Shown piece after piece: positions 14,710 to 44,163 of a stretch of 64,000 nucleotides of DNA. The notes beneath the pieces are model-generated. The model was not told the DNA's origin. It worked only from the letters and a program-made list of their open reading frames with translations, and made no database searches. Position 1 is the first letter of the stretch, and each line of letters begins with the position of its first letter. Source of the stretch: Jiangella alkaliphila (GTDB lineage: Bacteria; Actinomycetota; Actinomycetes; Jiangellales; Jiangellaceae); the NCBI RefSeq assembly GCF_900105925.1, contig NZ_LT629791.1:6728001-6792000 (forward strand), in the 5' to 3' direction. The position numbers and the translations under genes are program-made.

Positions 14710-14757
14710 GCGTCGAGGTAGGCTCTTCTCCGGGCACCTGACCTCGAAGGAGAGTGG

Positions 14758-16770: not shown

Positions 16771-16779
16771 GAGTTCGCC

Positions 16780-17052: not shown

Positions 17053-17061
17053 CGCCGGCCG

Positions 17062-18075: not shown

Positions 18076-18118
18076 GAGACACAACGCTATAGCGTCGGCG
18101 GCCCGATAGGCTCGGCGG

Positions 18119-19987
<1,869 letters not shown>

Positions 19988-28204: not shown

Positions 28205-29026
28205 CTAGAGGGGCACCCGGGCGGCGAGGGCGAGCACCCGGCGGGCCTGCTCGACCATCGCGACGTCGACGAAGCGGCCGCCGGGGAGGACGGCGACGCC
28301 GCCGGCCCCGACAGCGGCGATCACCTCGGTGGCGTGGGCGACCTCGTCCGGCGACGGGCGGAAGGCGGCCTCGATGACCGGAAGCTGCTTCGGGTGGATC
28401 GCGGCGCGCCCCACGAAGCCCAGCGCCCGCCCGGCCCGGGACGACTCGGCCAGGCCGTCCAGGTCGGCGAGGTCGGTCCAGACGGCCATGGCCGGCGGCG
28501 GCAGCCCGGCCGCCCGCGCGGCGACGACGAGTCGCTGCCGGCACCACGTCAGCCCGGCCTCGACGCCGTCGCCGGACAAGCCCAGGTCGGACGCGAGGTC
28601 GGCCTCGCCCAACGCGACCGACGCCACGCCCGGAGCCAACGCGATCGCATAGGCCGCCTCGACCCCGGCGGCCGTCTCCAGCAGCACGTGCACCGGCCGG
28701 CCCCCAAGCACCGACCGCACGGCCGCGACGTCGGACAGCGAGGACACCTTCGGCACCCGCACCGACACCGACGGCGGCAGCCCGGCGACCAGCGCGAGGT
28801 CGTCGGCGCCCCACGGCGTCGACGGGGCGTTCACCCGCACCTGCACGTCCCGGCCCGGGTCGGCGGCCAATACCGACGCCGCTCCGTCCCGGGCCGCGGC
28901 CTTCGCCGACGGCGCCACCGCGTCCTCCAGGTCGAGGATCACGACGTCGGCGGACGACGCCAGCGCCTTCTCGGCGCGGTCCGGCCGGTCGGCGGGCACG
29001 TACAACAGGGTCAGGACCAGGCTCAT
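28205..29026 (-). CDS. HpcH/HpaI aldolase family CoA-ester lyase (CitE-like)
   Basis: A 273-residue TIM-barrel protein of the CitE/malyl-CoA/citramalyl-CoA lyase group. It shows LLYVPADRPDRAEKALASSADVVILDLEDAV, the Glu-containing strand in VHVLLETAAGVEAAYAIA, and the metal-site region SVALGEADLASDLGL. Such enzymes cleave 3-hydroxyacyl-CoA diesters to acetyl-, propionyl- or glyoxylate-type products. The ATG overlaps the CoA-transferase stop (ATGA). Co-translation with a CoA-transferase suggests activation of an acid to its CoA ester followed by C-C cleavage; the acid is unknown. Confidence 0.85.
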   Translation of the reverse strand: MSLVLTLLYVPADRPDRAEKALASSADVVILDLEDAVAPSAKAAARDGAASVLAADPGRDVQVRVNAPSTPWGADDLALVAGLPPSVSVRVPKVSSLSDVAAVRSVLGGRPVHVLLETAAGVEAAYAIALAPGVASVALGEADLASDLGLSGDGVEAGLTWCRQRLVVAARAAGLPPPAMAVWTDLADLDGLAESSRAGRALGFVGRAAIHPKQLPVIEAAFRPSPDEVAHATEVIAAVGAGGVAVLPGGRFVDVAMVEQARRVLALAARVPL

Positions 29027-30210
29027 ACGACTCCCTCGGAGCGCAGCTCACCGATGTCGGCCACCGAATAGCCCAGTTCGCCCAGCAAACTATCAGTGTC
29101 GGCGCCGTGCGCCCGCCCGGTCCACCGCACCGCGCCCGGCGTCTCGGAGAGCCGGAACAGCACGTTCTGCATCGCCACCTCGCCGAGATCCGGATCGGCC
29201 GCCCGCAGCACCGTCCCCAACGCGGCCAGCTGCGGGTCCGCGACCAGGTCCGACGCGTCGTAGACGGGCGCGACGGCGGCCTCCGCCTTCTCGAACTCCG
29301 CGACCACCTCGTCCCGCGACCGCAAAGACACCCACGCCGCAACCGCCGCGTCCAGCTCCTCGACATGCGCGGCCCGGCCGGCACCGGTCGCGAACCACGG
29401 CTCGTCGACGACGTCGGGCCGGCCGACCAGCCGCATGACCCGCTCGGCGATGCTCTGCGAGCTGGTCGACACCGCGACCCATCGGCCGTCGGCGCACAGA
29501 TAGGTGTTGCGCGGCGCGTTGTTGGCCGACCGGTTGCCGGTCCGCGGCTGCATCGTCCCGAGCTGGTCCCACCGGGTCAGCTGCGGCCCGAGCACGGACA
29601 GCATCGGCTCGACGATCGCGAGGTCGACCACCTGCCCCCGCCCGCTCACCGACCGCGCGTGCAACGCGGCGGTGACGCCGAACGCCGTCGCCAGCGCCGT
29701 GATGCCGTCGGCGAGCCCGAACGGCGGCAGTGTCGGCGGGCCGTCGGGCTCGCCGGTCAGCGCGGCGAACCCGCTCATCGCCTCGGCCAGCGTGCCGAAC
29801 CCGGGCCGCCGCCGGTACGGGCCGACCTGCCCGAACCCGGTCACCCGCGCGAGGATCAGCCCCGGATTGTCGGCCGAGAGAACGGAGTACCCGAGGTTCC
29901 ACCGCTCCAGCGTGTCCGGCCGGAAGTTCTCGATGACGACGTCTGACTCGCGCGCCAGCCGCCGGAACACCTCCTGGCCACGCTCGTGCGACAGGTCCAG
30001 CGTCATCGTCCGCTTGTTCCGGCCGAGCGTCTTCCACCACAGGTTCTGCCCGTCCTTCGCCGGCCCGTGCCCGCGAGACGGGTCCGGCCGGCGCGGGTGC
30101 TCGACCTTGACGACGTCGGCGCCCATGTCACCGAGGTGCATCGCGGCGATCGGCCCCGCGAACAGCGTCGCGGCGTCGACGACCCGCAGACCGGCCAGCG
30201 GCCCGCTCAC
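29023..30210 (-). CDS. CaiB/BaiF family (type III) CoA-transferase
   Basis: A 395-residue family III CoA-transferase. It opens with [37 protein letters not shown], the standard N-terminus, and continues with [23 protein letters not shown] and [19 protein letters not shown]. The length is typical. It would move CoA from a donor such as succinyl-CoA to a carboxylic acid. The GTG 30210 overlaps the stop of the SUMF1-fused gene (GTGA) and the stop overlaps the lyase start (ATGA), so the three are made together. Confidence 0.9.
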
Positions 30211-32123
30211 GTCTTCACCCCCACGGCACAACGGAAGCCGATCGACGGCGACCGGTCCAGCCCAGCACCCATCAGCAGGTACTTCGCCGAGAACGACGGC
30301 GCCCGCTCGCCGCCGTCGAAGTACCAGTCCGACCCCGTCGGCACGAACGCCGACCCGCCCTTGAGGATCAGGAACCGGGTCCGGCCGTCGGTGTGCTCGC
30401 TCTCGGTCAGGTTCCAGACGGCGGGCGCGCCGCGCTCCAGCAGCCCGGCCTCGCCGGCGACCTGCCACTCGTCCTCCGTCGGCAGCCGCAGCCCGGCCCA
30501 TGCGGCGTAGGCGCGGGCGTCGGCGAGGTCGACGTACGTGACGGGGTCCGCGCCGCGCGGCTCGCCGTCGCGCCAGTGCGCCAGGAACCGCTCCGGCCGC
30601 ACCGGCCGGTAGCCGGTCGCGGCGAGGAACGCGGCGAACTCGTCGTTGGTCACCTCGGTCCGGCCGATGCCGAACGGCGTCAGCTCGGCCCGGCGGTGCG
30701 CGGTGCCGTCGGCGTGCAGCCGGCGCGGCAGCGGCTTCCACTCGTCGACGTACGGCGCCTCGTCGTACAGGCCGGTCTCGCGGACGCGGTACCGGACCAC
30801 CAGGTCGTACCGGCCGCCGTCGACCCGCACCATCCCCGGAGGGACGGTGTCGGCTTCGGCCTCGGCGGGACGCACGCGCGCGGCCGGCCGGCGCGGGAAC
30901 GTCGAGTCGGGGTCGACGACGGTGTCCCCCGCGGCAACCGAAGCGGCCAGCACCGCCGCGACCCCGCCCGCGGGCAACCGGCCGCCGATCACCGTCCGCC
31001 CGTCGTCGTCCTTGCCCACCGACAGCTCGGCACCGGTGGTGAGCTCGGTGAACGCGCCCGGCGCGTCGACGACCAGCCACGGCCCGGACCACTCCGCGTC
31101 GCTCCGGTTCACCACGGTCCACAAGGCCACGCCGTCATGGACCCACCGCGACGCGTACACCGGCGCACCACCGCCCGGATGGTCGGCCAGCGGCGTCCAG
31201 TCCTCGCTCTGCAGCCAGGCGCGGTATTCGCGCTGCACCCGGCGCATCGAGCGCAGCAGCGACCGGTCCCGCGCGCTCCAGCCCACCCAGACGCCGAACA
31301 CCGTCTCCCACACCAGGACGCCGGAGCCGTTCAGCCAGGCCGACTGCAGCTCCTCCAGATGACTGTGGTTCCAGCGGCGGGTGTGGTGCAGGACGTGCCG
31401 GCGCTCGAACCAGGTGCCACGGAGGACGCCCGGCACCGGCGAGTCGGCGAACCACTGCGCCCAGGACATCGTGTGGTCGTGCACGCGGGCCAGCGGCAAC
31501 CGCGACTCGCCCTCCATCGACAGCCCCGGCCGCAGCGCGTCCAGCCCGGCCCGGACCTCGGCGCTGCCCTCCTTCGAGCTGTCCAGGAAGACGCCGTCCG
31601 CGCCCAGCCGCTCCACCAGCGCGACGACCGACGCGGGGGCGGAAGCCTCCCACGGGTAGTACGACACGAACACCCGCACGCCGGCGGCCTGGAAGGCGGC
31701 GACGACGTCAGGCAGCTCGGGCACGTCGAAGAACGCGAACTGGTCCCGCTCGTCGATGCCCTCGTTCGGGTACGCGTGCCAGAGCACGACCCCGTCGAAG
31801 CCGCCGAACTCGCGCGTGGCCGCGGCCAGGTAGCCGTCGACGTCGAACCGGCCGGTCGCGTGGTCGTACAGCAGCTCGTCCCAGAGCCAGGCCAGCGCGA
31901 CGACGAACCCGTCGGTCCGCTCGGCGTCGTAGCGCGAGCCGTCGTAGCCGGCGCGGGCGCCGTCGCGCCAGCGCGTCAGCGCCGCCCGCCAGGCCGGCCA
32001 GTCCGCCGGGTCGTCCGGCGCGGCGAAGATCTTCGCTTCGTCCAGCACCGAGAGGTCGGCGGACGGGTCCAGCGGCACCGCCGCCGGCCGGTCGATCGGG
32101 CGCGGCACATACGGGTTGAGCAT
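30207..32123 (-). CDS. TIM-barrel-like hydrolase domain fused to a SUMF1/FGE-sulfatase domain
   Basis: A 638-residue cytoplasmic-looking protein without signal peptide. Residues 1-330 read like a glycosidase-type barrel ([41 protein letters not shown]). A beta-sandwich follows (about 340-430). The C-terminal 200 residues are a formylglycine-generating-enzyme-like fold ([68 protein letters not shown]). The CxxxxC copper-binding pair of true FGE is absent: the region reads KYLLMGAGL. The domain is therefore probably structural or sugar-binding. The start overlaps the ribokinase stop (TGATG). Confidence 0.72.
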
Positions 32124-33007
32124 CACGCCTCCGCCAGGAACGCATCGATCTCGCCGCGGTCAGGCATCGACGACGACGCGCCCGGCCGCTGCACGGACAG
32201 CGCGGCCGCCGCCGACGCCCGTCGCAGCGCGTCCGGCCACTCCAGGCCCGCCGCGAGGCCGACCGCGAGCACCCCGGCGAACGTGTCGCCGGCGGCCGTC
32301 GTGTCGACCGCCTCGACGGCGAACGCCGGCACGTCCGTGGTCGTTGCCCCGTTCACCCGGAGCGCCCCGCGGGCACCCAGCGTGACGACGACGTCGCCGC
32401 TCGCGGCCAGCGCGCGGGCCGCCGCCACCGGGTCGGCGACGCCGGCCAGCAGCACCGCCTCGTGCTCGTTCGGCACCAGGACGTCCACCGCGGCGAGCAG
32501 CGACGGCGGCAGCGGCACGGCCGGCGCCGGGGTGAGCATCACCCGCACGCCACGCGACCGGGCGTAGGCCGCCGCCTCCTCGACCAGCGGCAGCGGCAGC
32601 TCCAGCTGCAGCAGCACGACCTCGGCCGCGTCGATCGCCGTCCGGTGCGCGTCCGTCAGCCTCGCGACCGTCCCGTTGGCACCCGGCACGACGACGATCG
32701 AGTTGTCGCCGGTCCCGTCGACGGTGATGTGCGCGGTCCCGGTCGGCAGCTCGTTGACGGCCAGCCCGGACACGTCGACGCCGGACGCCGTCAGCAGCGC
32801 GGCGATGCGGCGGCCGAACTCGTCGTCGCCCACGGCGCCGAGGAGGGTGACGTCGCCGCCGGCCCGGGCGGCCGCGAGCGCCTGGTTGGCGCCTTTGCCG
32901 CCGGGGACGGTGGTGAACGTGCGGCCGGTGACGGTCTCGCCGCGTCCGGGCGCGCGGTCGACGGTGACGACCAGGTCCAGGTTGGCGCTGCCCAGGACGG
33001 CGATCAC
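32123..33007 (-). CDS. rbsK: Ribokinase (PfkB family)
   Basis: A 294-residue PfkB sugar kinase most like ribokinase. It has N-terminal [21 protein letters not shown], the first PfkB signature [17 protein letters not shown] with the ribokinase Asn, [12 protein letters not shown], and the second signature [20 protein letters not shown] with the catalytic Asp. Expected reaction: D-ribose plus ATP to ribose-5-phosphate. GTG 33007 overlaps the preceding ADP-ribosylglycohydrolase stop (GTGA). A ribose kinase directly after four ribosyl-bond hydrolase-like genes suggests that ribose is a released product. Confidence 0.88.
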
Positions 33008-34353
33008 GGCACGCTCACCGTCATCGTGCGGGCCGCGAGCGCGTCGAAGCCGATGCCGTCGAACCCGGCCAGTGTCGTGCTCACCCGGTTGCGCAGCGGC
33101 GCGATCCACCGCGACGGCAGGGCGGCGGCGCCGGTCAGCGCGCCGGCGATCGAGCCGACGGTGGCGCCGTTGGAGTCGGTGTCCCAGCCGCCGCTGACCA
33201 CGGCGGTGATCGAGCGCTCGTAGTCGCCGCCGCCGTGCACCAGCGCCGCGACGACCAGCGCGGCGTTGTTCAGCACGTGCACCCAGTGCAGGTGGCCGTA
33301 CCGCGCCTCGACGGCGTCGACGACGGCCTCCCAGTCGGGTTCGGCCGCGGCCGCCGACCGCGCGAACCGCACCGCCTCGGCGTACCGCGACGACGCCGGG
33401 ACGACCGACAGCCCGGCGTCGAGCACCTCGTCGACAGACGACGCGACCAGCGCGGCGGCGCAGGCGGCAGCCGCGAACAGCTCGCCGTACACGCCGTTGC
33501 GGGTGTGGCTGAGGACGGCGTCGCGCCAGGCCAGCGCGGCCGCGCCGGCGGGGTCGCCTGGACGGGCCCAGCCGAACACGTCGCCGCGGATCTGCGCGCC
33601 GATCCAGTCACGGAACGGGTTGCGCACCGTCGCGGTGGCCGGCGGCAGGTGGCCGAGCAGCAGGTTGCGGTACGCGACCCGCTCGGCGGTGAACACCCGG
33701 CCGGCCGGCAGCGACGCCAGCCAGGCCTCGGCGACGTCCTCGGTGGTGAAGTCGGCGCCGCGGGTCTCCAGCAGCGCGAGGTTGAGCATCGGGAAGTTGA
33801 GGTCGTCGTCCTCGGGCATGCCGTCGATGTTCTCGGCCAGGCTGGTCGTCGCGCTGCGCCGGTTCCACGGCCAGCGGGCGGCGACGTCGTCCGTCAGCCC
33901 CTTCGCCGTGAACCAGTCGTCGAGGGGCCAGCGGCCGGTCGCCTCGAGGATCTCCCGGATCCCGGCGCGCGACACCTTCTCCACCGGCTTGCCGAGCAGG
34001 CAGCCGGCCGCCCGGCCCAGCCAGGCGCCGTGCACGCGGTCGAACGACGGCGAGCCGGCGACGTGCCCGGCGGCGCGCCCGCCCGCCGGCCACGCCGCCC
34101 GCAGCTCGTCCAGCGCCGTCGGCTCAGACGCGTCGAACGGCGACGGCCGCGCGTCGACCTCGTCCAGCAACTCGGCGGCCAGCGCCCGCAGTTCCGGCGC
34201 CGGGACGTCCGACGCACCGGTGCGCACCGGTGCGTCGTCGCCGCCGGCCGCGGTCCAGCGCGAGCGCAGGTCGGCGACGTCCACCCCGTCCTCGGCCGCC
34301 TGGGCGAACGCGTGCCCGACCAGGTCCTCCGGCTGCACCCAGGTGAGCCGCAT
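33004..34353 (-). CDS. ADP-ribosylglycohydrolase family protein, paralogue 1
   Basis: A 449-residue member of the ADPRH/DraG family. An N-terminal extension of about 105 residues precedes the core, which begins DRVHGAWLGRAAGCLLGKPVEK. The first metal cluster is replaced by an acidic run GMPEDDDLNFPMLN. The second is intact as SGGWDTDSNGATVGSIAGALTGA. The family uses two Mg ions to cleave N- or O-ribosyl glycosidic bonds. This large form with the PEDDD site belongs to a bacterial subgroup rather than to classical DraG. The ATG overlaps the stop of paralogue 2 (TGATG). Confidence 0.87.
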   Translation of the reverse strand: MRLTWVQPEDLVGHAFAQAAEDGVDVADLRSRWTAAGGDDAPVRTGASDVPAPELRALAAELLDEVDARPSPFDASEPTALDELRAAWPAGGRAAGHVAGSPSFDRVHGAWLGRAAGCLLGKPVEKVSRAGIREILEATGRWPLDDWFTAKGLTDDVAARWPWNRRSATTSLAENIDGMPEDDDLNFPMLNLALLETRGADFTTEDVAEAWLASLPAGRVFTAERVAYRNLLLGHLPPATATVRNPFRDWIGAQIRGDVFGWARPGDPAGAAALAWRDAVLSHTRNGVYGELFAAAACAAALVASSVDEVLDAGLSVVPASSRYAEAVRFARSAAAAEPDWEAVVDAVEARYGHLHWVHVLNNAALVVAALVHGGGDYERSITAVVSGGWDTDSNGATVGSIAGALTGAAALPSRWIAPLRNRVSTTLAGFDGIGFDALAARTMTVSVP

Positions 34354-35498
34354 CAGGCCAGCCCTCCGAACGCCGTGTCAACAGCCGCTCGCCGGGCGGC
34401 GTCGGCCGCCCGCACCTGCGCCGTCACCGCCGCCAGCCGCTCGGCCGGCCCGACGATGTCCACCTTGCTCGCCGCCGCCACCGTCGTCACCAGGTCGGCC
34501 GGCACCGCCGCGCGCCCGCCGAGCGCGCCGGCGATCGCCCCGGCCATCGACGCGATCGAGTCGGAGTCGCGGCCGTAGTTGACGCCGCCGATGACGGCGT
34601 CGCGCCAGTCCCCGCCGGCGATGGCCAGGAAGCCGAGCGCGACCGGCAGTTCCTCGATGGTGTGCAGCCGGCTCGGCCGCCGGGCGCCGAGGCCCTGGTT
34701 GCGGTAGTCCTCGCCGACGGTGTCGTACGGCGCGACGGCGGCGCGCAGCTTGCCCGACTCGACCGCCTCGGTCCAGTGCCCGATCGAGCTCGCGGTGTCT
34801 AGCACGGCCTCGATGCCGGCCTTCGTCCCGTCCTTGGCCAGCCGGACGGCCGCGGCCAGCACGTCGTCGACCATCGCTCCAGGAGCCGCCGCCGCGGCCA
34901 CGCAGGCGGCCATGACGCCGGCCGCCTCGCGCCCGTAGGACGACTGGTGCGCGCCGGCGACGTCGACGGCCTCGGCGTAGGCGGCGTCGGGGTCGGCCGC
35001 GTTGACGACGCCGACCGGCGCGATGTACATCGCCGCGCCGCAGTTCACCGCGTTGCCGACGCCCGCCTCGCGTGGGTCGGCGTGCCCCCAGTGCAGCCGC
35101 AGCGCCATGAACTTCTCCGCCAGGAAGACCCGCTGCAGCGGCAGCGCCTCGGCCTCCAGCTCGGGGATCCAGACCTGCCGGCCGATCATCAGCGGCACCA
35201 GCCGCTCGGCCACGTCGTACGCGGTCAGGTGGGCGCCGGCCTGCTCGTACACGTCGACCATGAGGTGCGTCATCAGGGTGTCGTCGGTGATGTGGCCGTC
35301 GCCCTTGTGGTACGGCGCGATGGGCCGCGCGGTGCGCCAGTCCTCGTAGTACGGCGGCACGATGCCCTCGACCCAGCCGCCCCACCGTTCCCGGATCTGC
35401 TGCGGCGACCAGCCCTCCGTCGCACCACCGAGCGCGTCGCCGACGGCGGCTCCCGTCAGGCACCCGACCGCGGTATCGATGAGTGCGTCACCCGTCAC
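34353..35498 (-). CDS. ADP-ribosylglycohydrolase family protein, paralogue 2
   Basis: A 381-residue ADPRH-family protein with both metal-site motifs intact: GCLTGAAVGDALGGATEGW at the N-terminus, GHITDDTLMTHLM (first site) and NYGRDSDSIASMAGAIAGALGG (second site). It is probably catalytically competent. GTG 35498 overlaps the stop of paralogue 3 (GTGA). The substrate may be a ribosylated small molecule rather than a protein, given the importer and kinase in the same operon; that part is inference. Confidence 0.9.
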   Translation of the reverse strand: MTGDALIDTAVGCLTGAAVGDALGGATEGWSPQQIRERWGGWVEGIVPPYYEDWRTARPIAPYHKGDGHITDDTLMTHLMVDVYEQAGAHLTAYDVAERLVPLMIGRQVWIPELEAEALPLQRVFLAEKFMALRLHWGHADPREAGVGNAVNCGAAMYIAPVGVVNAADPDAAYAEAVDVAGAHQSSYGREAAGVMAACVAAAAAPGAMVDDVLAAAVRLAKDGTKAGIEAVLDTASSIGHWTEAVESGKLRAAVAPYDTVGEDYRNQGLGARRPSRLHTIEELPVALGFLAIAGGDWRDAVIGGVNYGRDSDSIASMAGAIAGALGGRAAVPADLVTTVAAASKVDIVGPAERLAAVTAQVRAADAARRAAVDTAFGGLA

Positions 35499-36598
35499 GC
35501 TGTTTTTCCTTTCCCTCGTTGGACTCGCCGCCGCCTGGAACCTCGCGGTCGGATTTGGCGGTCCCATTCCTCGATGGAGCCTGCCAGCTCGACCAGGTCG
35601 ATGCCGGCCAGATCGGGCGCGCAGCAGCCGGCGAGCCGCCGGCACCGCTCGACCCAGGTCGTGGGGAGCGCGTTCAGCCCGTGCGCCGCACCGGTGAGCG
35701 CGCCGGTCAGCGCGGGCGCGCTGTCGGCCAGGGTGGGCAGGCACGCGGCGGCGGTGATCGCGGCGATGGGCGGTTCGGCCGCGCGGCCGGCGGCGTGCGC
35801 GAGCGCGACGGCGACCGGCAGGGTCTGCGCGGCGGCGACGCCGTAGCTGTAGACGTGGCCGGCCGGCTCGTCCAGCAGCGGGACGGCGTCGGCGGCGCCG
35901 CCCGCGTCCTTCGTCGCGATCAGGGCGCGTGCGATGGCGTCGGTCAGCAGCCCGTCCTCCGGGAGGTGCGCGGCGGCCGCGGCCCAGGCGGCGGCCAGTG
36001 GCTCGCCGCGGACCAGCCGGGCGATCGTCTCGGCGACGACCTGCGCCGCGGCCACGCCGTCGCCGGCGTTCGTCACCTCGGCGTCCCAGCCGGCCAGCGT
36101 GGCGGCCTGCGCGGGGTCGGCGGCGACCAGCCCGATCGCGACTGCGCGCACCGCGGCGGCGTCGTCGAAGTGGTGCGGGTTGTCGTGCCCGGTGACCGGC
36201 GGGTCGACGTCCCGCCGCAGCGCGTCGGCCGCGGTGGCGACGCTGATCCGGCCGAGCGGCATGGCGCCCTCGGCGGCCGCCGTCCGCCAGTGCGCGTGCA
36301 CGTCCTCGCGGGTGAGCCGGCCGGGCGCGGCGGCGCCGAGCCACCGCAGCGTCCACGCCGCCCACTCCGCGTCGTCGCTCGGACCGAGCCGCAGCGCCGC
36401 CGTTGGCTGGTTCAGCGCGAACGGCACCGGCAGCGTCGTCACCTGCTCGTTCTCGGCGAACGCGTCCAGTTCGCGGTGCAGCCGGCGGGTCCACGGCGGC
36501 AACAGCCGGGCGCGGTGCCGGGCGGCGGGCCATCCCGCGGCGTCGCCGATGGCCAACCCGAGCAGCGCCCCGGCCGCACGGTTCTGCCGTTCGTTCAC
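35495..36598 (-). CDS. ADP-ribosylglycohydrolase family protein, paralogue 3 (degenerate site)
   Basis: A 367-residue family member recognised by RAAGALLGLAIGDAAGWP at the N-terminus. The first site is only partly kept (LGPSDDAEWAAW). The C-terminal D-x-D-[ST] site is lost: the equivalent stretch reads LPTLADSAPALTGALTGAAHG. The C-terminus is unusually basic (RPRGSRRRRVQRGKGK). Loss of metal ligands suggests a non-catalytic paralogue, perhaps a partner of the others. The GTG start overlaps the stop of paralogue 4 (GTGA). Confidence 0.8.
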   Translation of the reverse strand: MNERQNRAAGALLGLAIGDAAGWPAARHRARLLPPWTRRLHRELDAFAENEQVTTLPVPFALNQPTAALRLGPSDDAEWAAWTLRWLGAAAPGRLTREDVHAHWRTAAAEGAMPLGRISVATAADALRRDVDPPVTGHDNPHHFDDAAAVRAVAIGLVAADPAQAATLAGWDAEVTNAGDGVAAAQVVAETIARLVRGEPLAAAWAAAAAHLPEDGLLTDAIARALIATKDAGGAADAVPLLDEPAGHVYSYGVAAAQTLPVAVALAHAAGRAAEPPIAAITAAACLPTLADSAPALTGALTGAAHGLNALPTTWVERCRRLAGCCAPDLAGIDLVELAGSIEEWDRQIRPRGSRRRRVQRGKGKTA

Positions 36599-37551
36599 GT
36601 CGCCGTCTCCAGGTGGTCGGCCAGCCGGTCGGCGAGATCGAGCGGGTGCAGGCCAGCGACCACCTCGCCCAGGCAGCGGCCGGTGACCGGCCCGATCTGG
36701 TCCTGCCAGTCCGCCGGGACGGCGCCGAGGCCACCGAAGGCGCCCGCGAGCGCACCGGCGATCGCGGCCGTCGTGTCGGCGTCGCGCCCCATCGACACCG
36801 CGCCCGTCACAGCGTCCGCGAACGAGCCGGACGCGGCCAGGAAGGCGCCGAACGCCAGCGCGACCGCCTCCGGCGCCAGGTCCGTCCACGGATACGCACG
36901 GACGACGACCGCGTCCAGCAGCGCGGGCACGTCCCCGGCGTGCACCAGCGCCGACCGCAACGACCGCGCCGTCCACGAATCAGGAGGGACGGCGGCCAGC
37001 GCGGCGGCCGCGATCTCACCCACCGAAGCCGTCCCCGTCATCGCGACGGCGACCGCGGCGGCCACCGCGACACCGGCGTGCACGCCCTCACCGGAGTGGC
37101 TGACCGCGCCGTCGACGGCCGCCAGCCGCGCCGCCAGCGCCGGGTCGCCCGCCGCGTACACCCCGTGCACCGCGGACCGCATGGCCAGCCCGTCGCTCCA
37201 CGAGTGCAGGTGCCGCCCGCTGGCCGGCGGCCGCAGCCCGGCGCGCAGGTTCTCGATGGTGCCGAGCTCGCTGAACCCGGCGCCCGGGAAGCCGCCTTCA
37301 CGCCCGGCCAACTCAGCGATCCACGCGTCGGCCACGTCGTCGCTGGTCAGCGAGGCGCCGTGCGAGAGCAGCAGCAGCGCGCTGAACGCCGCGTACTCGG
37401 TGTCGTCGGTACCCGACGGCCGGTCGGTGAGGAACCCGGAGACCGTGCCCCAGCGGGCGGCGATCTGCTCGGCCGTCAGGTTCTCCGCGGGGGCGCCCAT
37501 GGCGTCGCCGATGGCGAGCCCGAGCAGGCACCCCCGCGCGCGGTCCCTCAT
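36595..37551 (-). CDS. ADP-ribosylglycohydrolase family protein, paralogue 4
   Basis: A 318-residue protein, close to the minimal DraG length. Motifs are RARGCLLGLAIGDAMGAPAENL, SGTDDTEYAAFSALLL (first metal site) and SMGRDADTTAAIAGALAGAFGG (second metal site), all intact. It is the first of four consecutive paralogues in transcription order. The ATG 37551 overlaps the stop of the binding-protein gene (TGATG), so hydrolase synthesis is tied to that of the importer. Confidence 0.9.
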   Translation of the reverse strand: MRDRARGCLLGLAIGDAMGAPAENLTAEQIAARWGTVSGFLTDRPSGTDDTEYAAFSALLLLSHGASLTSDDVADAWIAELAGREGGFPGAGFSELGTIENLRAGLRPPASGRHLHSWSDGLAMRSAVHGVYAAGDPALAARLAAVDGAVSHSGEGVHAGVAVAAAVAVAMTGTASVGEIAAAALAAVPPDSWTARSLRSALVHAGDVPALLDAVVVRAYPWTDLAPEAVALAFGAFLAASGSFADAVTGAVSMGRDADTTAAIAGALAGAFGGLGAVPADWQDQIGPVTGRCLGEVVAGLHPLDLADRLADHLETAT

Positions 37552-38855
37552 CAGCGCTGGTAGCGCTCGAGGACCGCGTTGCCCTCGTCGACCAGCTTCG
37601 CGCCCAGCTCCTCCAGCGAGATCTGGTCGCTGAAGTACTCCTGGAACGCCGGGTTGGCGATCCGCGACTTCCATTCCTCGAACCCCTTGACCTGCTGGAA
37701 CGGCGCCATCTCCAGGTCGGCGGCGGTGGCCGTCGCGACGTCCCAGCCGGTGGCCGGGTCGTTCAGCTCCGGGCTCTGCGCCGCCTCCTGGCTGGTCGGC
37801 AGCAGCCAGTCGCCGGCGGCCAGCTGGACCTGGTTCTCGGCATTGAGGAAGTACTCGATGAACTGGACGGCCTCCTCCGGGTGCTCGGTCTCGGCCGACA
37901 CGGAGAGGGTCTGGCTGACGGCGCCCTGCGCGCTGCTGTCGCCCTCGAGCGCGGGCAGCGTCACCCAGTCGAACCCGTCCGGCGCCTGCTCGATGATCTG
38001 CTGGCGCAGCCAGATCGCGCCCGGCAGCATCGCGTACTGGCCGGCGAAGAAGCCGGGCAGCGCGTCGGCCGACGACATGCCGACGCCGTCCGGCGCGGCG
38101 GTGTTCTCGGTGTAGAGCATCTCGTGGATGCGCCGCGGCACCTCCTGGTCGGCCTCGTCGAAGACCGCCTGCACCTCGCCCGTCGGGTCGGTGAAGTAGT
38201 CGCCGCCGAAGTTGCGGGCCAGGTTGAGGATGCGGTTGGCCGGCGCGTTCAGCGGGACGACGGCGCCGAACTGGCCCTCGGTGGTGAGCTGCGCGGCGAC
38301 GTCGGCGAACTCGTCCCACGTCCACGGGTCGTCGACGGTCGGCAGCGTGACGCCGGCCGCGTCGAGCAGCGTCCGGTTGGCGAACACGACCTGCGACTCC
38401 TGCAGGAACGGCACGCCGTAGACGGCGTCGCCGAACGTCGCGGTGTCCCAGGCGCCTGCGCGGATGTCGTCGCGGATCTCGTCGGACAGGTACTCCGACA
38501 GGTCCAGGACGTTGCCGCGGTCGCCGAAGTCCTGCAGCACCGTGGACTCGTAATGGAATACGTCCGGCGCGGTGCCGCCCTCGAACGACGTCATCAGCTG
38601 GTCCTGGACGTTGTTCCAGTCGCCCTGCAGCAGCTCGACCTGGATGTCCGGGTTCGCCTCGTTCCAGGCGGCGACGATGGCCTCGTTGGCCTCGACGCTC
38701 GCGGTCTGCCAGGCCAGCGTCTGGAAGGTCAGCTCGACCGGCTCGCCGCCGCTCCCGCTGCCGCCGTCGCCGCCGGTCTCGTCGTCACCGCCGCCGCACG
38801 CCGCGAGCACCAGGCCCGCGGCCGCCGCGAGGGCGACGATTCGCATCGAACGCAT
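37551..38855 (-). CDS. ABC transporter substrate-binding lipoprotein (MalE/UgpB type)
   Basis: A 434-residue cluster-1 (carbohydrate) binding protein. The lipoprotein signal is MRSMRIVALAAAAGLVLAAC with the Cys at residue 20, followed by a Gly/Asp-rich linker. SBP_bac_1 features follow: LTFQTLAWQ, IVAAWNEANPDIQVELLQGDW, GTAPDVFHY and AMLPGAIWLRQQI. A strong AGGAGGAGG ribosome-binding site before ATG 38855 suits high-level synthesis. The gap from the permease gene is 28 bp, the widest inside the core operon. Confidence 0.92.
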   Translation of the reverse strand: MRSMRIVALAAAAGLVLAACGGGDDETGGDGGSGSGGEPVELTFQTLAWQTASVEANEAIVAAWNEANPDIQVELLQGDWNNVQDQLMTSFEGGTAPDVFHYESTVLQDFGDRGNVLDLSEYLSDEIRDDIRAGAWDTATFGDAVYGVPFLQESQVVFANRTLLDAAGVTLPTVDDPWTWDEFADVAAQLTTEGQFGAVVPLNAPANRILNLARNFGGDYFTDPTGEVQAVFDEADQEVPRRIHEMLYTENTAAPDGVGMSSADALPGFFAGQYAMLPGAIWLRQQIIEQAPDGFDWVTLPALEGDSSAQGAVSQTLSVSAETEHPEEAVQFIEYFLNAENQVQLAAGDWLLPTSQEAAQSPELNDPATGWDVATATAADLEMAPFQQVKGFEEWKSRIANPAFQEYFSDQISLEELGAKLVDEGNAVLERYQR

Positions 38856-38883
38856 GGGGTTCCTCCTCCTCGAGGTCCTTGAT

Positions 38884-39720
38884 TCAGGACTTGACGGCTC
38901 CGCCGAGCAGCCCGCCGGTGAGCCGGCGCTGCATGAAGGCGAAGAAGATCAGGCTGGGGATGGTCGCGACCAGCGACGCCGCCGCCAGCGGGCCCAGCCG
39001 GGCCACGCCCTCGGCGCCGATGAACTTCACCAGCGTCAGGGACAGCGTCTGCAGCTCCGGGTCGCGGATCAGCACGAGCGCGAACAGGAACTCGTTCCAG
39101 GCCGATACGAACGCGAACAGCCCGGCCGCGACGACGCCCGGCGCCAGCAGCGGCGCGATGACGCTGCGCAGCGTCCGCACCTTCGACGCCCCGTCCATGG
39201 ACGCGGCCTCCTCGAGCTCGATCGGGATCGTCTCGACGTAGCTGCGCAGCATCCAGAGTGCGAACGGCATGCTCCAGACGACGTAGACGGCGATCAGCCC
39301 GATGTAGGTGTCGTACAGGCCGAGGTCGCGGAGCAGCAGGAACAGCGGGATGATCACCAGGATGAACGGGAAGATCTGGCTGAGCAGCACCCAGACCAGC
39401 GTCAGCCGGCTCAGCACCGACCGGTACCGGGCCATCACGTACGCCGCCGGGATCGACAGCACCACCGTCACCAGGCACGACACCCCGGCGACCAGCAGCG
39501 TGTTGAAGATCGACCGGACGATCGGCTGCTCGTCGAACGCGGCCCGGAAGTTCTCGAACGTGATGTCGTTCGGGATCCATGTCGGCTCGATCAGCGCCAG
39601 CTCCTGCGGCGTCTTCAGCGCCGTCGAGACCAGCCAGAACAGCGGGAACGCCAGGAACACCAGGTAGGCAGTGAGCGCGAGGTACTTCAACGTCGTCGCG
39701 ACGGGCGTGGAGCGGTTCAT
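38884..39720 (-). CDS. Carbohydrate ABC transporter permease (MalG type)
   Basis: A 278-residue inner-membrane permease with about six hydrophobic segments. The EAA loop that contacts the ATPase is IELEEAASMDGASKVRTLRS (about residue 185), and the start ALTAYLVFLAFPLFWLVSTALKTPQEL is typical of MalG/AraQ. ATG 39720 overlaps the MalF-type stop (TGATG). No ATPase gene is present in the operon. Import must use an ATPase made elsewhere, as with the shared MsiK-type ATPases of streptomycetes. Confidence 0.92.
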   Translation of the reverse strand: MNRSTPVATTLKYLALTAYLVFLAFPLFWLVSTALKTPQELALIEPTWIPNDITFENFRAAFDEQPIVRSIFNTLLVAGVSCLVTVVLSIPAAYVMARYRSVLSRLTLVWVLLSQIFPFILVIIPLFLLLRDLGLYDTYIGLIAVYVVWSMPFALWMLRSYVETIPIELEEAASMDGASKVRTLRSVIAPLLAPGVVAAGLFAFVSAWNEFLFALVLIRDPELQTLSLTLVKFIGAEGVARLGPLAAASLVATIPSLIFFAFMQRRLTGGLLGGAVKS

Positions 39721-40658
39721 CAGGCGTTCGCCTCCCGGACCCGCTGGCGCAGATAGAAGACGACGAACACCGCGATCACGACGACCATCGCGTTGCCCAG
39801 CGCCGCCGCGTAGCCGTAGTTGCCGTACCGGAACGCCTCCTCGTAGGCGAACAGCAGCGGCAGCCGCGTCTCGCCGCCCGGCCCGCCCTCGGTCAGGACG
39901 TAGACCAGGCTGAACGAGTTGAAGTTCCAGATGAAGTCGAGCGTCGTCATCGCGATGACCACCGGCTTGATCGCCGGCCACGTCACGCTGCGGAAGCGCT
40001 GCCAGACGTTGGCGCCGTCCATCGCGGCCGCCTCGTGCAGCTCCTTCGGGACGCTCTGCAGACCGGCCAGCAGCACCACCGTCGTCTGCGGCATGCCCGC
40101 CCAGACGCCGACCACGATCACCGCGGGCAGCGCCACCGAGAACGACGACAGCCAGTCGACGTTCTCGTCGATGATGCGCAGGTCCAGCAGGACGTCGTTG
40201 AGGATGCCGGCGTTCGGGTGGTACACCAGCCGCCACATGATGCCGATGACGACCGGCGGCATCGCCCACGGCACCAGCGCCAGCGTCCGCGCCAGCCAGC
40301 GCAGCCGGAGCTTCTGGTTGAGCAGCAGCGCAAGGCCGAGGCTGGCGAAGAACTGCAGGATCGTGACGGAGAACGCCCAGATCAGGCCGATGCGGAACGA
40401 GTCCCAGAAGTACGAGTCGTCGAGCAGGTTCTGGTAGTTCTCGAAGCCGGTGAAGCTGACCTCGGCGTTCGCCCCGGCCTGCGCGTCGGTGAAGCCCAGG
40501 TAGATGCCGCGCAGCAGCGGGTAGACGCTGAAGAGCACGACCGGGATCAGCGCGGGGACCGCGAGCATCAGGCCGTCGCGGTCCAGGCCGAGGACGCGGC
40601 GCGGCTTGCGGGCCGGGCGGGTCGGCTGCGGCCGCTCGGTCAACGTCGTGGCGCTCAT
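39720..40658 (-). CDS. Carbohydrate ABC transporter permease (MalF/UgpA type)
   Basis: A 312-residue permease: basic Pro/Arg cytoplasmic tail (TRPARKPRRVLG), then LMLAVPALIPVVLFSVYPLLRGIYLGFTD and about six membrane spans. The EAA loop is KELHEAAAMDGANVWQRFRSV. It pairs with the MalG-type protein downstream. ATG 40658 overlaps the lacI stop (ATGA), placing regulator and transporter in one transcript. Confidence 0.92.
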   Translation of the reverse strand: MSATTLTERPQPTRPARKPRRVLGLDRDGLMLAVPALIPVVLFSVYPLLRGIYLGFTDAQAGANAEVSFTGFENYQNLLDDSYFWDSFRIGLIWAFSVTILQFFASLGLALLLNQKLRLRWLARTLALVPWAMPPVVIGIMWRLVYHPNAGILNDVLLDLRIIDENVDWLSSFSVALPAVIVVGVWAGMPQTTVVLLAGLQSVPKELHEAAAMDGANVWQRFRSVTWPAIKPVVIAMTTLDFIWNFNSFSLVYVLTEGGPGGETRLPLLFAYEEAFRYGNYGYAAALGNAMVVVIAVFVVFYLRQRVREANA

Positions 40659-41659
40659 CGGCTGCTCTCCCGGACGGTCAGCGACGGCGGGACGGTGACC
40701 CGCTCGGCCGGCGCGTCGTCGCCCTCGAGGCGGCGCAACAATAGCTCCGCGGCGATGCGGCCGCGGTCGGCCGAGCCGAGCGAGACGCTGGACAGCGGCG
40801 GGAAGCTGGTCGCGGCCAGCGGGGTGTCGTCCATGCCGACCACCCGCACGTCGCCGGGGACGTCGCGGCCCAGCTCGCGCAGCGCGTGCAGGACGCCCAT
40901 CGCGATGAGGTCGTTCGCGCCCAGCACGGCGTCGATGCCGGGGTGCACGGTCAGCAGTTCGCGCGCGGCCTTGCGGCCGGCGTCGAACTGGAAGTCGGTG
41001 AACCGGACCAGTGCGTCGTCCTCCGGGAGGCCGGCGGCGGCCAGTCCGCGGCGATAGCCGTCGTAGCGGGCCCGGCCGGGGACGGTGTCGAGCGGGCCGT
41101 CGATGAACGCGATGCGGCGTGCGCCGGCCTCGGCGAGGTGCTCGACCGCCAGCCGCGCCCCGACCCGCGAGTCGGCCCGCACGTTGTCGACCGGGACGTC
41201 GTCCGGCAGCAGGCCGATGACCACGACCGGGACGGCGGTCTGCCGCAGCGCCTCGACGTGCCGGTCGGTGACCCGCAGCGGGCACAGGATCAGCCCGTCG
41301 ACGTAGTTCTGGCTGAGGCTGGCGAGCACGCCGAGCTCGTCCTCGACGTCGGCGCCGGTGCTGTGCAGCAGCAGCCGGTAGCCCTCCTCGCGCAGCGTCG
41401 GCTGGATGCGGCGCACCATCTCCAGGTAGGCGGCGTTGCCGATGTCCTCCATGGCGAACGCGACCTGCCCGGTGTGCCGCGTCTTCAGCGACTGCGCGAC
41501 CACGCTCGGGACGTAGCCGACCTCCCGCACGGCCGCGTTGACCCGGGCAACCATGTCCGCGTTGGAGGTGTTGCCGTTGAGCGCCCGCGACACCGAGGAG
41601 ATCGAGACCCCGGCAACCCTGGCGACCTCGTGAATGGTCGGCCGGCGGCGCATCGTCAC
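40655..41659 (-). CDS. LacI-family transcriptional regulator
   Basis: A 334-residue repressor. The N-terminal helix-turn-helix and hinge are TIHEVARVAGVSISSVSRALNG, followed by a periplasmic-binding-protein-like sensor domain (GVDGLILCPL-type strand, FIDGPLDTVPGRARYDGYRRGLAAAG, DAVLGANDLIAMGVL). GTG 41659 is preferred over ATG 41653 because GGAGG is about 10 nt upstream. It is the first gene of the operon and has two GGAAACGTTTCC-like operators just upstream, so autoregulation with induction by the imported sugar or its product is likely. Confidence 0.92.
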   Translation of the reverse strand: MTMRRRPTIHEVARVAGVSISSVSRALNGNTSNADMVARVNAAVREVGYVPSVVAQSLKTRHTGQVAFAMEDIGNAAYLEMVRRIQPTLREEGYRLLLHSTGADVEDELGVLASLSQNYVDGLILCPLRVTDRHVEALRQTAVPVVVIGLLPDDVPVDNVRADSRVGARLAVEHLAEAGARRIAFIDGPLDTVPGRARYDGYRRGLAAAGLPEDDALVRFTDFQFDAGRKAARELLTVHPGIDAVLGANDLIAMGVLHALRELGRDVPGDVRVVGMDDTPLAATSFPPLSSVSLGSADRGRIAAELLLRRLEGDDAPAERVTVPPSLTVRESSR

Positions 41660-41689: not shown

Positions 41690-41703
41690 CGGAACCGTTT
41701 CCG
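41690..41703. promoter_or_regulatory. LacI-type operator O1
   Basis: CGGAACCGTTTCCG, a palindrome with one mismatched pair, matching the LacI/CcpA-family consensus core. It lies 31 bp upstream of the lacI GTG start and 33 bp centre to centre from O2, about three helical turns. Confidence 0.75.
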
Positions 41704-41722
41704 AGTGACATCGTGATAGAGA

Positions 41723-41736
41723 GGGAAACGTTTCCG
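41723..41736. promoter_or_regulatory. LacI-type operator O2
   Basis: GGGAAACGTTTCCG contains a perfect 12-bp palindrome GGAAACGTTTCC. It is the stronger of the two sites before the lacI operon and would overlap the promoter region. Confidence 0.8.
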
Positions 41737-41824
41737 GGATGGGTGACATTGGACCGCGCCCGCCCCGGTCGCGTCAAGTACCGATACGAACCCGTGACCC
41801 CACCGGCCCCGCACCCCCGCCCGC

Positions 41825-41896
41825 GTTGATCTTGGAGTTGTGCGGCAATTGCCGTCCGCTTCGCCCGATAGATGGCCGAACAACTCCAAGATCAAC
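41825..41896. repeat. 17-bp-stem hairpin (GTTGATCTTGGAG type)
   Basis: Perfectly complementary 17-nt arms at 41825-41841 (GTTGATCTTGGAGTTGT) and 41880-41896 are separated by 38 nt. It lies between the divergent lacI operon and esterase gene, so it could insulate the two promoters. A hairpin of the same stem length with a related GTTGAT core is at 47825-47880. The rest of 41660-42036 holds only the operators and promoters. Confidence 0.8.
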
Positions 41897-41995
41897 TTCG
41901 GAGGGGTGCGCGGGCGGTCTTGACGGGGTGTCGGGGGGCGTGCTGGAGTAGCGCCGATTCCCGGATCGCGACCGCGGGCCGTTCTCGGCACGACG

Positions 41996-42009
41996 CGGAA
42001 ACGTTTCCG
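41996..42009. promoter_or_regulatory. LacI-type operator O3, before the esterase gene
   Basis: A perfect 14-bp palindrome CGGAAACGTTTCCG, 27 bp upstream of the esterase ATG. It is the same core as O1 and O2, so the divergent esterase gene is very probably in the same LacI regulon. O2 to O3 is 273 bp, which would allow a repression loop. Confidence 0.8.
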
Positions 42010-42036
42010 AGGTCCACGGGCGCAAAGGAGCGGCAG

Positions 42037-44163
42037 ATGGCGGGATGGAATCGGGCCGGCACGGTGGCGGCGGCATCGTTGCTGCTCGCGGCGGTGCACG
42101 TCGCCGGATCGGGCTCCGCTCCGGAGCCTGACGATGCCGCCAGAGCCACCACGCCGGCCGCCGAGCCGGCCCGAGGGACCGTCGTCACGGGGACGGCGCC
42201 GGCGGGGGCGGCGGGCGTGCCGGTCGAGTACGCCGCCTACCTGCCCGCCGGCTACGACGACGGCACGGAGGAGTACGCGACGATCTACCTGCTGCACGGC
42301 CGCGGCGACACGATGGCCGCCTGGCAGCAGGTGACGGCCGACCTCGACCAGCTGATCGCCGACGGCGACGTGCCGCCGGTCATCGCGGTCATGCCGGACG
42401 CGCCGTGGAGCGAGCGCGGCAACTGGTACGTCGACTCCCAGCACGTCGACGGCGCGGCTGTCGAGACGGCGCTCGCCACCGACCTCGTCGCCCATGTCGA
42501 CGCGACCTACCGGACGGTCGCGGACCGGGACGCGCGGGCGGTCGGCGGCTACTCGATGGGCGGCTACGGCGCGCTGCGGTACGCCCTGGCCCACCAGGAC
42601 GTCTTCGCCGCCGGCATGGTGCTCAGCCCCGCGGTGTACGTGCCGCTGCCGCCGGCCGACTCGTCGACGCGGGAGTTCGGCGGCTTCGGCGTCGGCGACG
42701 CGCTGTTCGACGACGCCAGGTACACGCAGCTCAACTACCCGGCGCTGCTGGACGCCGCCGACCCGGAGTTGCCGACGCACCTGTTCATCGCGGTCGGCGA
42801 CGACGAGTGGGCCAACCCCGCGCCCGAGGACGCCGACCACGACATCGACTTCGAGTCCGCCCGCCTCTACAACGCCGCCCGCCGCGTCGACGGCGTCACC
42901 GCGGAGCTGCGGATCCTCGACGGCGGGCACGACTGGGACGTCTGGCGCCCGGCGTTCCGCGACGGCCTGACCGACCTCGCCGGCCACCTGCGCACCACCG
43001 ACCCGCTCCCCCTGCCCGGCGACGTCACCGGCACCGAGGCGGACGACCGCGCCGGCGGCGTCGCGGTGACCGGCACCAGCACCGTGACGGCGGTCAACCA
43101 AGGCGCCGACGCCGTGCTCACGGCGGACGGAGAGCAGGGCTGGACGCTGCCGCTCGCGAGCCCCGCCGCCGACCGCGTCTACGGCCTGCACACCGGCCCG
43201 GACGGCGACCTCTATACGGCCGGCTACACCCGCGGCGACCTCGACGGACAGCACCCCGGCAACGCCCGTGACGACGCCTTCACCGCCCGCGTCACCAGCA
43301 CCGGCGAACGAGTCTGGCTGACACAGTTCGGCGACCCGGCAGCGGCCGATCGCGCCTACGCGAGCGTCCCCGCACCCGATGGCGGCCTGTACGTCGCCGG
43401 CTACACCAGCGGCAGCGTCGGCGGCACCGCGAACGCCGGCGACAAGGACGCCCTGCTGGCCCGGCTCGGCCCGGACGGCGAGCTGCTGTGGACCCGCCAA
43501 CTCGGCGGCGCCGGCGAGGACAAGGCACTGGCGGTCACGATCGGCGCCGACCGCCGCGTCTACGTCGCCGGCGTCACCTCACAGGCGATGCCGGGCGGGA
43601 CGGCCAACGGCGGGCTGGACGCGTGGGTGGCCCGGTTCGGCGCCGACGGCAGGCAGGACTGGCTGAGCCAGTTCGGCACCACCGAGTCCGACCAGTTCAC
43701 CGCGCTCGCGCCGCTCCCGACCCAGGGCGTGGTCGCGGCCGGCCACACCGGCGGGACCCTCGGCGTGGCGAGCGCCGGCGGCAACGACCAGCTGGCCGTG
43801 GCGGTGACGTCGAGCGGCCGGGCCCGCTGGCTCACCCAGGACGGCACCGACGGCGACGACCGCGCCGCCGCCGTACATGTCGCCGACGACGGCACGATCA
43901 CCGTCGCCGGGCACACCGACGGCCGTGTCGGAGTGAGCGCCGGCGGCGTGGACGTCGTCGTCAGCACACTGGGCAGCCGCGGCCAGGTGCGCGACCGGAC
44001 CCAGTTCGGCACGCCGGAACGCGACGGCGCCGACGAGTGGGACGAGTCGAACCTCTACCTCGGCGGCGACGGCGCGGGCGGCCTGCTGATCACCGGCCTG
44101 ACGTTCGGCGGCGGCCGCGGGCTCGGTGACGTGTTCACCGGCCCGCTTCCGCCAGTCAGCTAG
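42037..44163 (+). CDS. Secreted esterase-D-like hydrolase fused to a beta-propeller (SBBP-like repeats)
   Basis: A 708-residue protein with a signal peptide (RAGTVAAASLLLAAVHVAGSGS). Residues 50-330 are an alpha/beta hydrolase of the esterase D/Fes type: IYLLHGRGD, nucleophile Ser173 in GGYSMGGYG, and His298 in LDGGHDWDVWRP. Residues 370-708 contain repeated units such as DALLARLGPDGELLWTRQLGG and DAWVARFGADGRQDWLSQFG, the SBBP-type propeller pattern. It would act on extracellular esters, perhaps freeing a substrate for the LacI-regulated importer. AAGGAG precedes ATG 42037, with operator O3 just upstream. Confidence 0.85.
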   Translation: MAGWNRAGTVAAASLLLAAVHVAGSGSAPEPDDAARATTPAAEPARGTVVTGTAPAGAAGVPVEYAAYLPAGYDDGTEEYATIYLLHGRGDTMAAWQQVTADLDQLIADGDVPPVIAVMPDAPWSERGNWYVDSQHVDGAAVETALATDLVAHVDATYRTVADRDARAVGGYSMGGYGALRYALAHQDVFAAGMVLSPAVYVPLPPADSSTREFGGFGVGDALFDDARYTQLNYPALLDAADPELPTHLFIAVGDDEWANPAPEDADHDIDFESARLYNAARRVDGVTAELRILDGGHDWDVWRPAFRDGLTDLAGHLRTTDPLPLPGDVTGTEADDRAGGVAVTGTSTVTAVNQGADAVLTADGEQGWTLPLASPAADRVYGLHTGPDGDLYTAGYTRGDLDGQHPGNARDDAFTARVTSTGERVWLTQFGDPAAADRAYASVPAPDGGLYVAGYTSGSVGGTANAGDKDALLARLGPDGELLWTRQLGGAGEDKALAVTIGADRRVYVAGVTSQAMPGGTANGGLDAWVARFGADGRQDWLSQFGTTESDQFTALAPLPTQGVVAAGHTGGTLGVASAGGNDQLAVAVTSSGRARWLTQDGTDGDDRAAAVHVADDGTITVAGHTDGRVGVSAGGVDVVVSTLGSRGQVRDRTQFGTPERDGADEWDESNLYLGGDGAGGLLITGLTFGGGRGLGDVFTGPLPPVS

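Follow-up and report, generated by a model that had tools for sequence, protein, structure and literature searches.

Operons in which a LacI repressor controls glycoside catabolism through an ATP-binding cassette (ABC) importer of the CUT1 type are a general kind in Actinobacteria. The ribose-scavenging rus loci of Bacteroides, described by Glowacki in 2020, reportedly combine ribokinases with ribosyl hydrolases, and some of their relatives are said to carry ADP-ribosylglycohydrolases. The Bacteroides rus locus uses a SusC/SusD outer-membrane system. In Escherichia coli, yegTUV encodes a predicted ADP-ribosylglycohydrolase, a putative sugar kinase and a putative nucleoside transporter, and its function is given as unknown in the excerpts of the source (PMC10819704). 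Here we analysed a 12-gene operon in a 64,000-nucleotide stretch (the window) of the single-contig, 7.72-Mb genome of Jiangella alkaliphila (contig NZ_LT629791.1, positions 6,728,001 to 6,792,000). The operon occupies window positions 28205–41659 on the minus strand. It encodes a LacI repressor, two permeases, a solute-binding protein (SBP), four members of the ADP-ribosylglycohydrolase family PF03747 (A4, A3, A2 and A1, in operon order), a ribokinase-like enzyme, a fusion protein with an FGE-sulfatase domain (the FGE fusion), a CaiB-type coenzyme A (CoA) transferase and a CitE-type lyase. Together with a divergent esterase gene, the operon probably forms a regulon that represses itself and serves the catabolism of a riboside-like compound carrying an ester.

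At ten of the eleven junctions, adjacent genes overlap by 1 or 4 bases; a 28-base gap separates the remaining pair. Every gene was supported by Pfam (LacI, BPD_transp_1 twice, SBP_bac_1, PF03747 four times, PfkB, the FGE-sulfatase domain, CoA_transf_3 and HpcH_HpaI). A first-pass annotation, made from the sequence letters, had read these genes as one leftward run, and all of them were indeed found in that orientation; it had also placed the run under LacI control, which the operators described below bear out. It had overlooked the esterase gene.

Three LacI-type palindromes lie between lacI and the divergent esterase gene, two before lacI and one before the esterase gene. The pattern GGAAMCGKTTCC occurred at three places in the 7.7-Mb genome, all of them at lacI or the esterase gene; a reversed control gave 0. 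Paired sites, 33–36 bases apart, preceded lacI in all 15 loci of one set (the window and L039–L052). An additional operator copy was present in 6 of these loci, 5 of which carry the esterase. In a broader set of related loci, an operator palindrome preceded lacI in 66 of the 72 checked, mostly as GTAAACGTTTAC outside Jiangellaceae. The exact GTAAACGTTTAC pattern was found in 18 of 19 other genomes, and in each of the 18 the coordinates put a site within the operon locus. Outside the operon, these 19 genomes held four such sites in all, in four different Nonomuraea genomes. Every one of them lay just upstream of an esterase orthologue, 50–53% identical to that of the window and ≈ 99 kb to 2.5 Mb away from the operon. 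With operators upstream of lacI that are rare elsewhere in the genome, the LacI regulon is, judged by its predicted sites, local and autoregulated. Because operators precede the esterase gene in both lineages, its predicted membership of the regulon in Jiangella and Nonomuraea is well supported. The repressor itself had RbsR as its best NCBIfam model, with a score far below the RbsR cut-off.

Named genomes were scanned with an alignment of A2, which gave at least 543 stretches encoding A2 relatives; the best 80 were analysed as loci. Counts over these 80 loci (Table 1) include losses at contig ends. The order lacI-permease-permease-SBP-A4-A3-A2-A1-ribokinase-(FGE fusion)-caiB-citE was kept, by the members present, in 79 of the 80; the sole exception (L128) has additional lacI, kinase and esterase genes upstream. 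All four PF03747 genes were found in 73 of the 80 loci; where enough flanking sequence was available, the figure was 70 of 73 (L069, L121 and L131 lacked one or more). Since the four genes recur in so many related loci, the gene set of the operon is not a chance arrangement. The first-pass annotation had suggested a neighbourhood search for multi-copy PF03747 genes with a kinase and an SBP gene, and this combination recurs here (four PF03747 genes in 73 loci, SBP in 73 and kinase in 69). The loci come from Jiangellaceae, Streptomycetaceae, Streptosporangiaceae, Thermomonosporaceae and Pseudonocardiaceae, and the organisms belong to five orders. In an even draw of 296 genomes from the phylum, A2 was found in 8, the genome analysed here and seven others of one genus. 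Within the host's order, a search with A3 gave matches in 19 of 22 genomes. Fifteen regions were taken from this search, from genomes overlapping with those of the 80-locus set. Fourteen of them, each from a different genome, cover the operon in identical order, 9 of the 14 with the FGE fusion, and the fifteenth (L053) carries just an FGE relative.

The Jiangella SBPs were of two versions, 56–58% or at least 91% identical to that of the window (window 37551–39720, L039–L052), and one permease likewise (78–79% or at least 91%); most neighbouring operon genes vary less. These two versions suggest that the transporter part has been exchanged among Jiangella.

Table 1. Features of the operon and its divergent neighbour in the window (fractions are loci with the gene among the 80 best A2-related loci)
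Feature	Position	Strand	Evidence
LacI-family repressor, first gene of the operon	40655..41659	-	Pfam LacI/Peripla_BP_3; orthologue in 72/80
ABC permease, MalF-like position	39720..40658	-	PF00528; 73/80
ABC permease, MalG-like position	38884..39720	-	PF00528; 73/80
Extracellular SBP, CUT1 type, lipoprotein-like start (by eye)	37551..38855	-	PF01547; 73/80
A4, ADP-ribosylglycohydrolase family, intact metal-ligand signature	36595..37551	-	PF03747 177 bits; 75/80
A3, degenerate ADP-ribosylglycohydrolase family member	35495..36598	-	PF03747 102 bits; 79/80
A2, most conserved ADP-ribosylglycohydrolase-family protein	34353..35498	-	PF03747 166 bits; 80/80
A1, ADP-ribosylglycohydrolase family, ~100 extra N-terminal residues	33004..34353	-	PF03747 170 bits, residues 109-415; 77/80
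Ribokinase-like PfkB kinase	32123..33007	-	TIGR02152 298.5 bits; 69/80
Accessory protein, glycoside-hydrolase-like TIM barrel and beta sandwich (low-confidence models), fused FGE/SUMF1-like domain	30207..32123	-	PF03781; 11/80
Class III (CaiB/BaiF) CoA-transferase	29023..30210	-	PF02515 396 bits; 47/80
CitE-like (HpcH/HpaI) acyl-CoA lyase	28205..29026	-	PF03328; best NCBIfam model RipC; 46/80
LacI-type operator O1 (contains GGAACCGTTTCC)	41690..41705	.	one of 3 GGAAMCGKTTCC places in genome
LacI-type operator O2 (contains GGAAACGTTTCC)	41723..41738	.	pairs with O1 upstream of lacI
LacI-type operator O3, precedes divergent esterase	41996..42011	.	palindrome search
CE1-type esterase, apparent signal peptide (by eye), C-terminal beta-propeller-like part	42037..44163	+	PF00756; 6/80

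The HemK gene just past citE (27431–28195) was rejected as an operon member; it was present in 7 of the 80 loci, all Jiangella. A scan for terminators and promoters was uninformative, with one terminator-like site against 2.3 expected and no promoter-like sites. At 41815–41906, flanked by the lacI operators on one side and the esterase operator on the other, is a long inverted repeat (35-base arms, 83% complementary), perhaps a terminator or an interspersed repeat.

The PF03747 cut-off of 26.2 bits was exceeded by all four family members (Table 1). They had been described at first pass as tandem paralogues. Four PF03747 genes do stand in tandem, but they are neither recent copies nor equivalent. 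By BLASTP within the window, the pairs A1–A2, A1–A4, A2–A4 and A3–A4 aligned at 26–33% identity, and A1–A3 and A2–A3 gave no match at E 0.001. Orthologues outside Jiangellaceae were 63–74% identical for A2, 54–69% for A1 (plus 43% for one cut gene), ≈ 49–64% for A4 and 34–63% for A3. In a tree of 78 rows, for which the tool flagged long branches, A1, A2 and A3 formed clades with bootstrap support of 99–100 and A4 one with 75/36. Recent tandem duplication was rejected on the low mutual identity, the separate clades and the orthologues that are closer than the paralogues. By these comparisons A1–A4 are old, separate subfamilies; A3 may be derived from A4.

The four proteins also differ in their metal signatures. 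That of A4 is intact (E23, T48-D49-D50-T51 and D257-A258-D259-T260) and at least 97% conserved in 74 sequences. A2 has E28, T71-D72-D73-T74 and D311-x-D313-S314, at least 97% conserved in 81 sequences, and its mean column identity was 88% over 15 sequences of the host's order. A1 has D182-D183-D184 where TDD is expected; its signature is at least 97% conserved in 75 sequences. A3 has lost the Glu and the first Asp, and the conserved remainder is D75-D76 and D292-S293 (75 sequences). The first Asp is, by eye, also absent from the other A3-type protein of the genome. We take the conserved Glu, T/D-D-D and D-x-D-T/S residues to be ligands of two metal ions.

Streptomyces has a counterpart of these genes. 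In Streptomyces albospinus (L136), the order is A4-A3-A2-A1-caiB-citE. Next come genes that look, by eye, like lgt, a DsbA-like gene, trpA and trpB, the last of which was confirmed no further than as a PALP protein. In Streptomyces coelicolor, SCO2038 is trpX according to the excerpted source (PMC5036795). From the gene order and the locus numbering beside trpA-trpB, counting SCO2028 to SCO2037, we infer that A4-A3-A2-A1-caiB-citE corresponds to SCO2028–SCO2033. The excerpts of two papers list SCO2028–2031 (PMC9411070) and SCO2028–2030 (PMC5087735) as uncharacterised DraG/ARH homologues. This listing, and the classical TDDT and DxDT/S signatures in A2 and A4, would agree with a role of all four proteins as erasers of ADP-ribosylation on proteins, nucleic acids or small molecules, to which the transporter genes would be incidental. 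However, no A protein reaches the equivalog cut-off of DraG (TIGR02662, cut-off 337; A1 to A4 scored 34, 29, no match at E 0.001 and 50 bits) or of Tri1 (NF041672, cut-off 490; 19, 39, 27 and 43 bits), the A genes share a single LacI operon with an importer and a kinase, and none of the operon's genes matched an ADP-ribosyltransferase family in Pfam. We therefore regard erasers as a very unlikely explanation. SCO2028 and SCO2030, by position A4 and A2, had no activity on U-alpha-ADPr in the excerpted report (PMC13036486). Such inactivity fits, but does not prove, a non-signalling role; it concerns one substrate and is weak evidence.

The CUT1 importer is represented by the SBP_bac_1 binding protein and the two BPD_transp_1 permeases. 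No ATPase gene for the transporter was found in the operon; shared ATPases elsewhere in the genome were not searched for. Many sugar- and oligosaccharide-binding proteins show weak similarity to the SBP, and these matches do not indicate a ligand. Next to this lipoprotein-like protein, the operon hydrolases have, by eye, no evident signal peptide. The kinase scored 298.5 bits with the ribokinase model, and its GGKGANQA stretch and D241 were conserved in 70 sequences. The genome has 10 PF03747 genes in total. Nine of them lie in four clusters, and each cluster also has a ribokinase-like gene. The window accounts for four of the nine and L002 for one; the two clusters of region L001 contribute three and one, the latter encoding a protein with an apparent signal peptide. 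For the tenth (L003), no ribokinase-like gene was found in the stretch read. L001 holds relatives of A1 (41%), A4 (50–53%) and A3 (39–40%), that is, of three of the subfamilies. Import, riboside cleavage and a kinase step are thus likely as read from the genes, and the association with ribokinase-like genes points to ribose as the sugar. The same steps had been proposed at first pass; the gene order, the LacI regulon, the lack of evident signal peptides on the hydrolases and the kinase association of 9 of the 10 PF03747 genes support them, and what falls is the picture of four equivalent paralogues acting on the compound.

Within L001, one cluster (1878–10528; genome 6281877–6290527) comprises a ribokinase-like gene, two permease genes, an SBP gene, an A1-type hydrolase gene, lacI, and divergent A4-type and A3-type hydrolase genes; A2 and the CoA arm were not seen in it. 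The other (13014–19505) encodes a 651-residue PF03747 protein with a signal-peptide-like start, downstream of a ribose-type ABC transporter and a ribokinase. From this protein, the PF03747 family may also work outside the cell. In L002 (6860–11916), an A1-type hydrolase gene is accompanied by SBP, lacI and ribokinase-like genes.

The esterase matched PF00756 with 77.4 bits over residues 63–313 (cut-off 22 bits). Among solved structures, its catalytic part was nearest to ferulic acid esterase and its C-terminal part was CylK-like. The former match raises the alternative that the sugar is another cis-hydroxyl furanose, such as apiose or arabinofuranose, borne by an acylated plant glycoside, and that the PfkB enzyme phosphorylates this sugar or its ketose. 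Oligosaccharides or glycosides are the usual cargo of CUT1 importers, the proteins with weak similarity to the SBP include an arabino-oligosaccharide binder, and the accessory gene has a glycoside-hydrolase-like fold in its low-confidence models. Against this, the kinase fits ribokinase best and scores 105 bits with the next sugar-specific model, no isomerase gene was found in the operon by Pfam, and the functionally characterised PF03747 enzymes act on ribosyl bonds. A furanose other than ribose is, in our judgement, unlikely.

The FGE fusion stands at the same place in 11 of the 80 loci, including those of Pseudonocardia, Actinomadura and Allokutzneria. Its models had a mean pLDDT of 54.8 (whole) and 62.6 (barrel part). 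Their structural matches were to many TIM-barrel enzymes, of the alpha-amylase clan and others, and mostly had a large rmsd (root-mean-square deviation). These models suggest a TIM barrel plus beta sandwich of the glycoside-hydrolase type.

The CoA-transferase scored 395.9 bits against PF02515 (cut-off 23.3), and none of the seven NCBIfam models listed reached its own cut-off. Its D168, presumably catalytic, was conserved in 48 sequences. Signature residues, to which we assign roles by assumption, were conserved in the lyase too. The lyase scored 154.4 bits with RipC (NF038242, itaconate C-C-lyase), whose cut-off is 375. A complete itaconate pathway was rejected, as the operon's Pfam matches include no hydratase and the lyase is far below the RipC cut-off. 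Because no hydratase gene stands beside caiB-citE, a free hydroxy-dicarboxylic acid would be the simplest substrate.

Does this pair act on a product of the same compound? Of the 80 loci, 74 extend 5 kb or more to the right; caiB was found in 46 of these and citE in 45, in many genera. In four Nonomuraea genomes, the pair stands elsewhere (L160–L163), divergent from an apparent GntR-type regulator gene, and no LacI operator was found in those 18-kb regions. The acid arm is separable, since it stands apart in these genomes beside the GntR-type gene. The operon might degrade a riboside while caiB-citE joined it as an independent pair that degrades an acid; the lack of a hydratase gene beside the CitE-type lyase, which suggests a free hydroxy-acid substrate, would also suit such a pair. 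On the other side, the pair lies downstream at the same place in many genera of several orders, the two genes overlap here by 4 bases, and Streptomyces kronopolitis (L131) has A2 and caiB alone, side by side. An independent pair is a serious possibility, although we lean against it. The first-pass annotation had the aglycone, perhaps an acid, activated to a CoA ester and cleaved: the recurrence of caiB and citE in the operon speaks for this, and the separability in Nonomuraea speaks against it; the identity of aglycone and acid is conjectural. In L160–L162, the pair was also near an apparent CUT2-type sugar transporter. Genome G030 has a further caiB copy (61%, L164), with no citE match beside it.

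Taken as a regulon for an ester-bearing, riboside-like compound, the genes would work as follows. The CE1-type esterase, presumably secreted, would trim the compound outside the cell. The CUT1-type ABC importer, presumably with an ATPase from elsewhere in the genome, would bring in the glycoside. In the cytosol, A4, A2 and A1 would hydrolyse ribofuranosyl bonds, and A3 may be a weakly metal-binding partner or a pseudo-enzyme. The ribokinase-like enzyme would phosphorylate the freed ribose, or the riboside before its cleavage. In loci that have the pair, the CaiB-type transferase would form the CoA ester of a malate- or citramalate-like hydroxy-dicarboxylic acid, which the CitE-type lyase would then cleave to acetyl-CoA and a 2-oxo acid. 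LacI would repress the operon and the esterase gene until an inducer binds.

Several observations weigh against this scheme, in addition to the separate caiB-citE pairs of Nonomuraea. An activity or ligand is known for no member of the operon. As the 80 loci were selected as the best A2 matches, conservation among them is overstated. The esterase gene lies beside the operon in only 6 of them (elsewhere it was sought in Nonomuraea only). In Nonomuraea thailandensis (L151, 6802–8693), it is 5'-truncated, starting at about codon 75, and encodes no signal peptide; the operator directly precedes the remaining part. Phytoactinopolyspora endophytica (L051) has a third operator and no esterase match beside it. 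No palindrome was found in 6 of the 72 loci checked; one of these, L061, belongs to the organism of L051, for which closer inspection did reveal operators. Genome G034 has no site of the exact GTAAACGTTTAC pattern. The kinase score lies ≈ 1 bit below the equivalog cut-off for ribokinase (299.65), and a ribokinase match was absent from 9 of the 74 loci with enough flank. Two Streptomyces loci (L136 and L131) keep A genes and caiB with no adjoining lacI, transporter or kinase.

We tentatively propose, as a more specific and somewhat doubtful version, that genes of the SCO2028–2031 type are dedicated catabolic ribofuranosidases and not erasers. Three of them would be active with different linkage preferences and one would be a degenerate partner. 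Their substrate would be a widespread, unrecognised ester-linked riboside of a malate- or citramalate-like acid, the sugar going to ribose 5-phosphate and the acid to acetyl-CoA. The catabolic reading gives a coherent context to genes of a model Streptomyces that figure as uncharacterised hydrolases in the ADP-ribosylation literature, and it predicts that assays on ADP-ribosylated targets will continue to fail. It defines a 12-gene operon and one esterase as a testable regulon with mapped operators, and it points to a soil compound with a ribose-like sugar and an ester; among the open-access papers listed in our literature search, none showed a described bacterial food source of this kind. In agreement with the first-pass annotation, which knew of no such pathway, the same listed papers (subscription papers were outside the scope) gave no description of the gene set or pathway. 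A word search in the main text of a LacI-regulon paper gave no mention of ADP-ribosyl or Streptomyces.

How does the locus compare with the known systems? It resembles E. coli yegTUV in its set of hydrolase, kinase and transporter, which there has a dedicated one-target repressor, GgaR/YegW; yegTUV differs, according to the excerpts, by an MFS symporter, a single hydrolase, a GntR repressor and no CoA arm (PMC10819704). SCO2028–SCO2033 appears, by order and numbering, to be the same block, and the linked S. albospinus locus is without adjoining lacI, transporter and kinase genes. Itaconate degradation (Ict-Ich-Ccl or RipABC) likewise has a CaiB-type CoA-transferase beside a CitE-type lyase; unlike that pathway, the operon has no MaoC-type hydratase gene, and its lyase is far from RipC (154 bits against a cut-off of 375). 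In contrast to Bacteroides rus, none of the operon's Pfam matches is of the SusC/SusD type and an ABC importer is found instead; rus is not known to have LacI, a CUT1 importer or a CoA arm. The locus also resembles the LacI-controlled CUT1 glycoside operons, with which it has in common an apparently autoregulated LacI, a binding protein, two permeases, cytosolic hydrolases and a sugar kinase. Unlike them, it has four ADP-ribosylglycohydrolase subfamilies in place of the usual glycosidases, a CoA-transferase/lyase pair that follows, and an esterase as the sole other LacI target seen.

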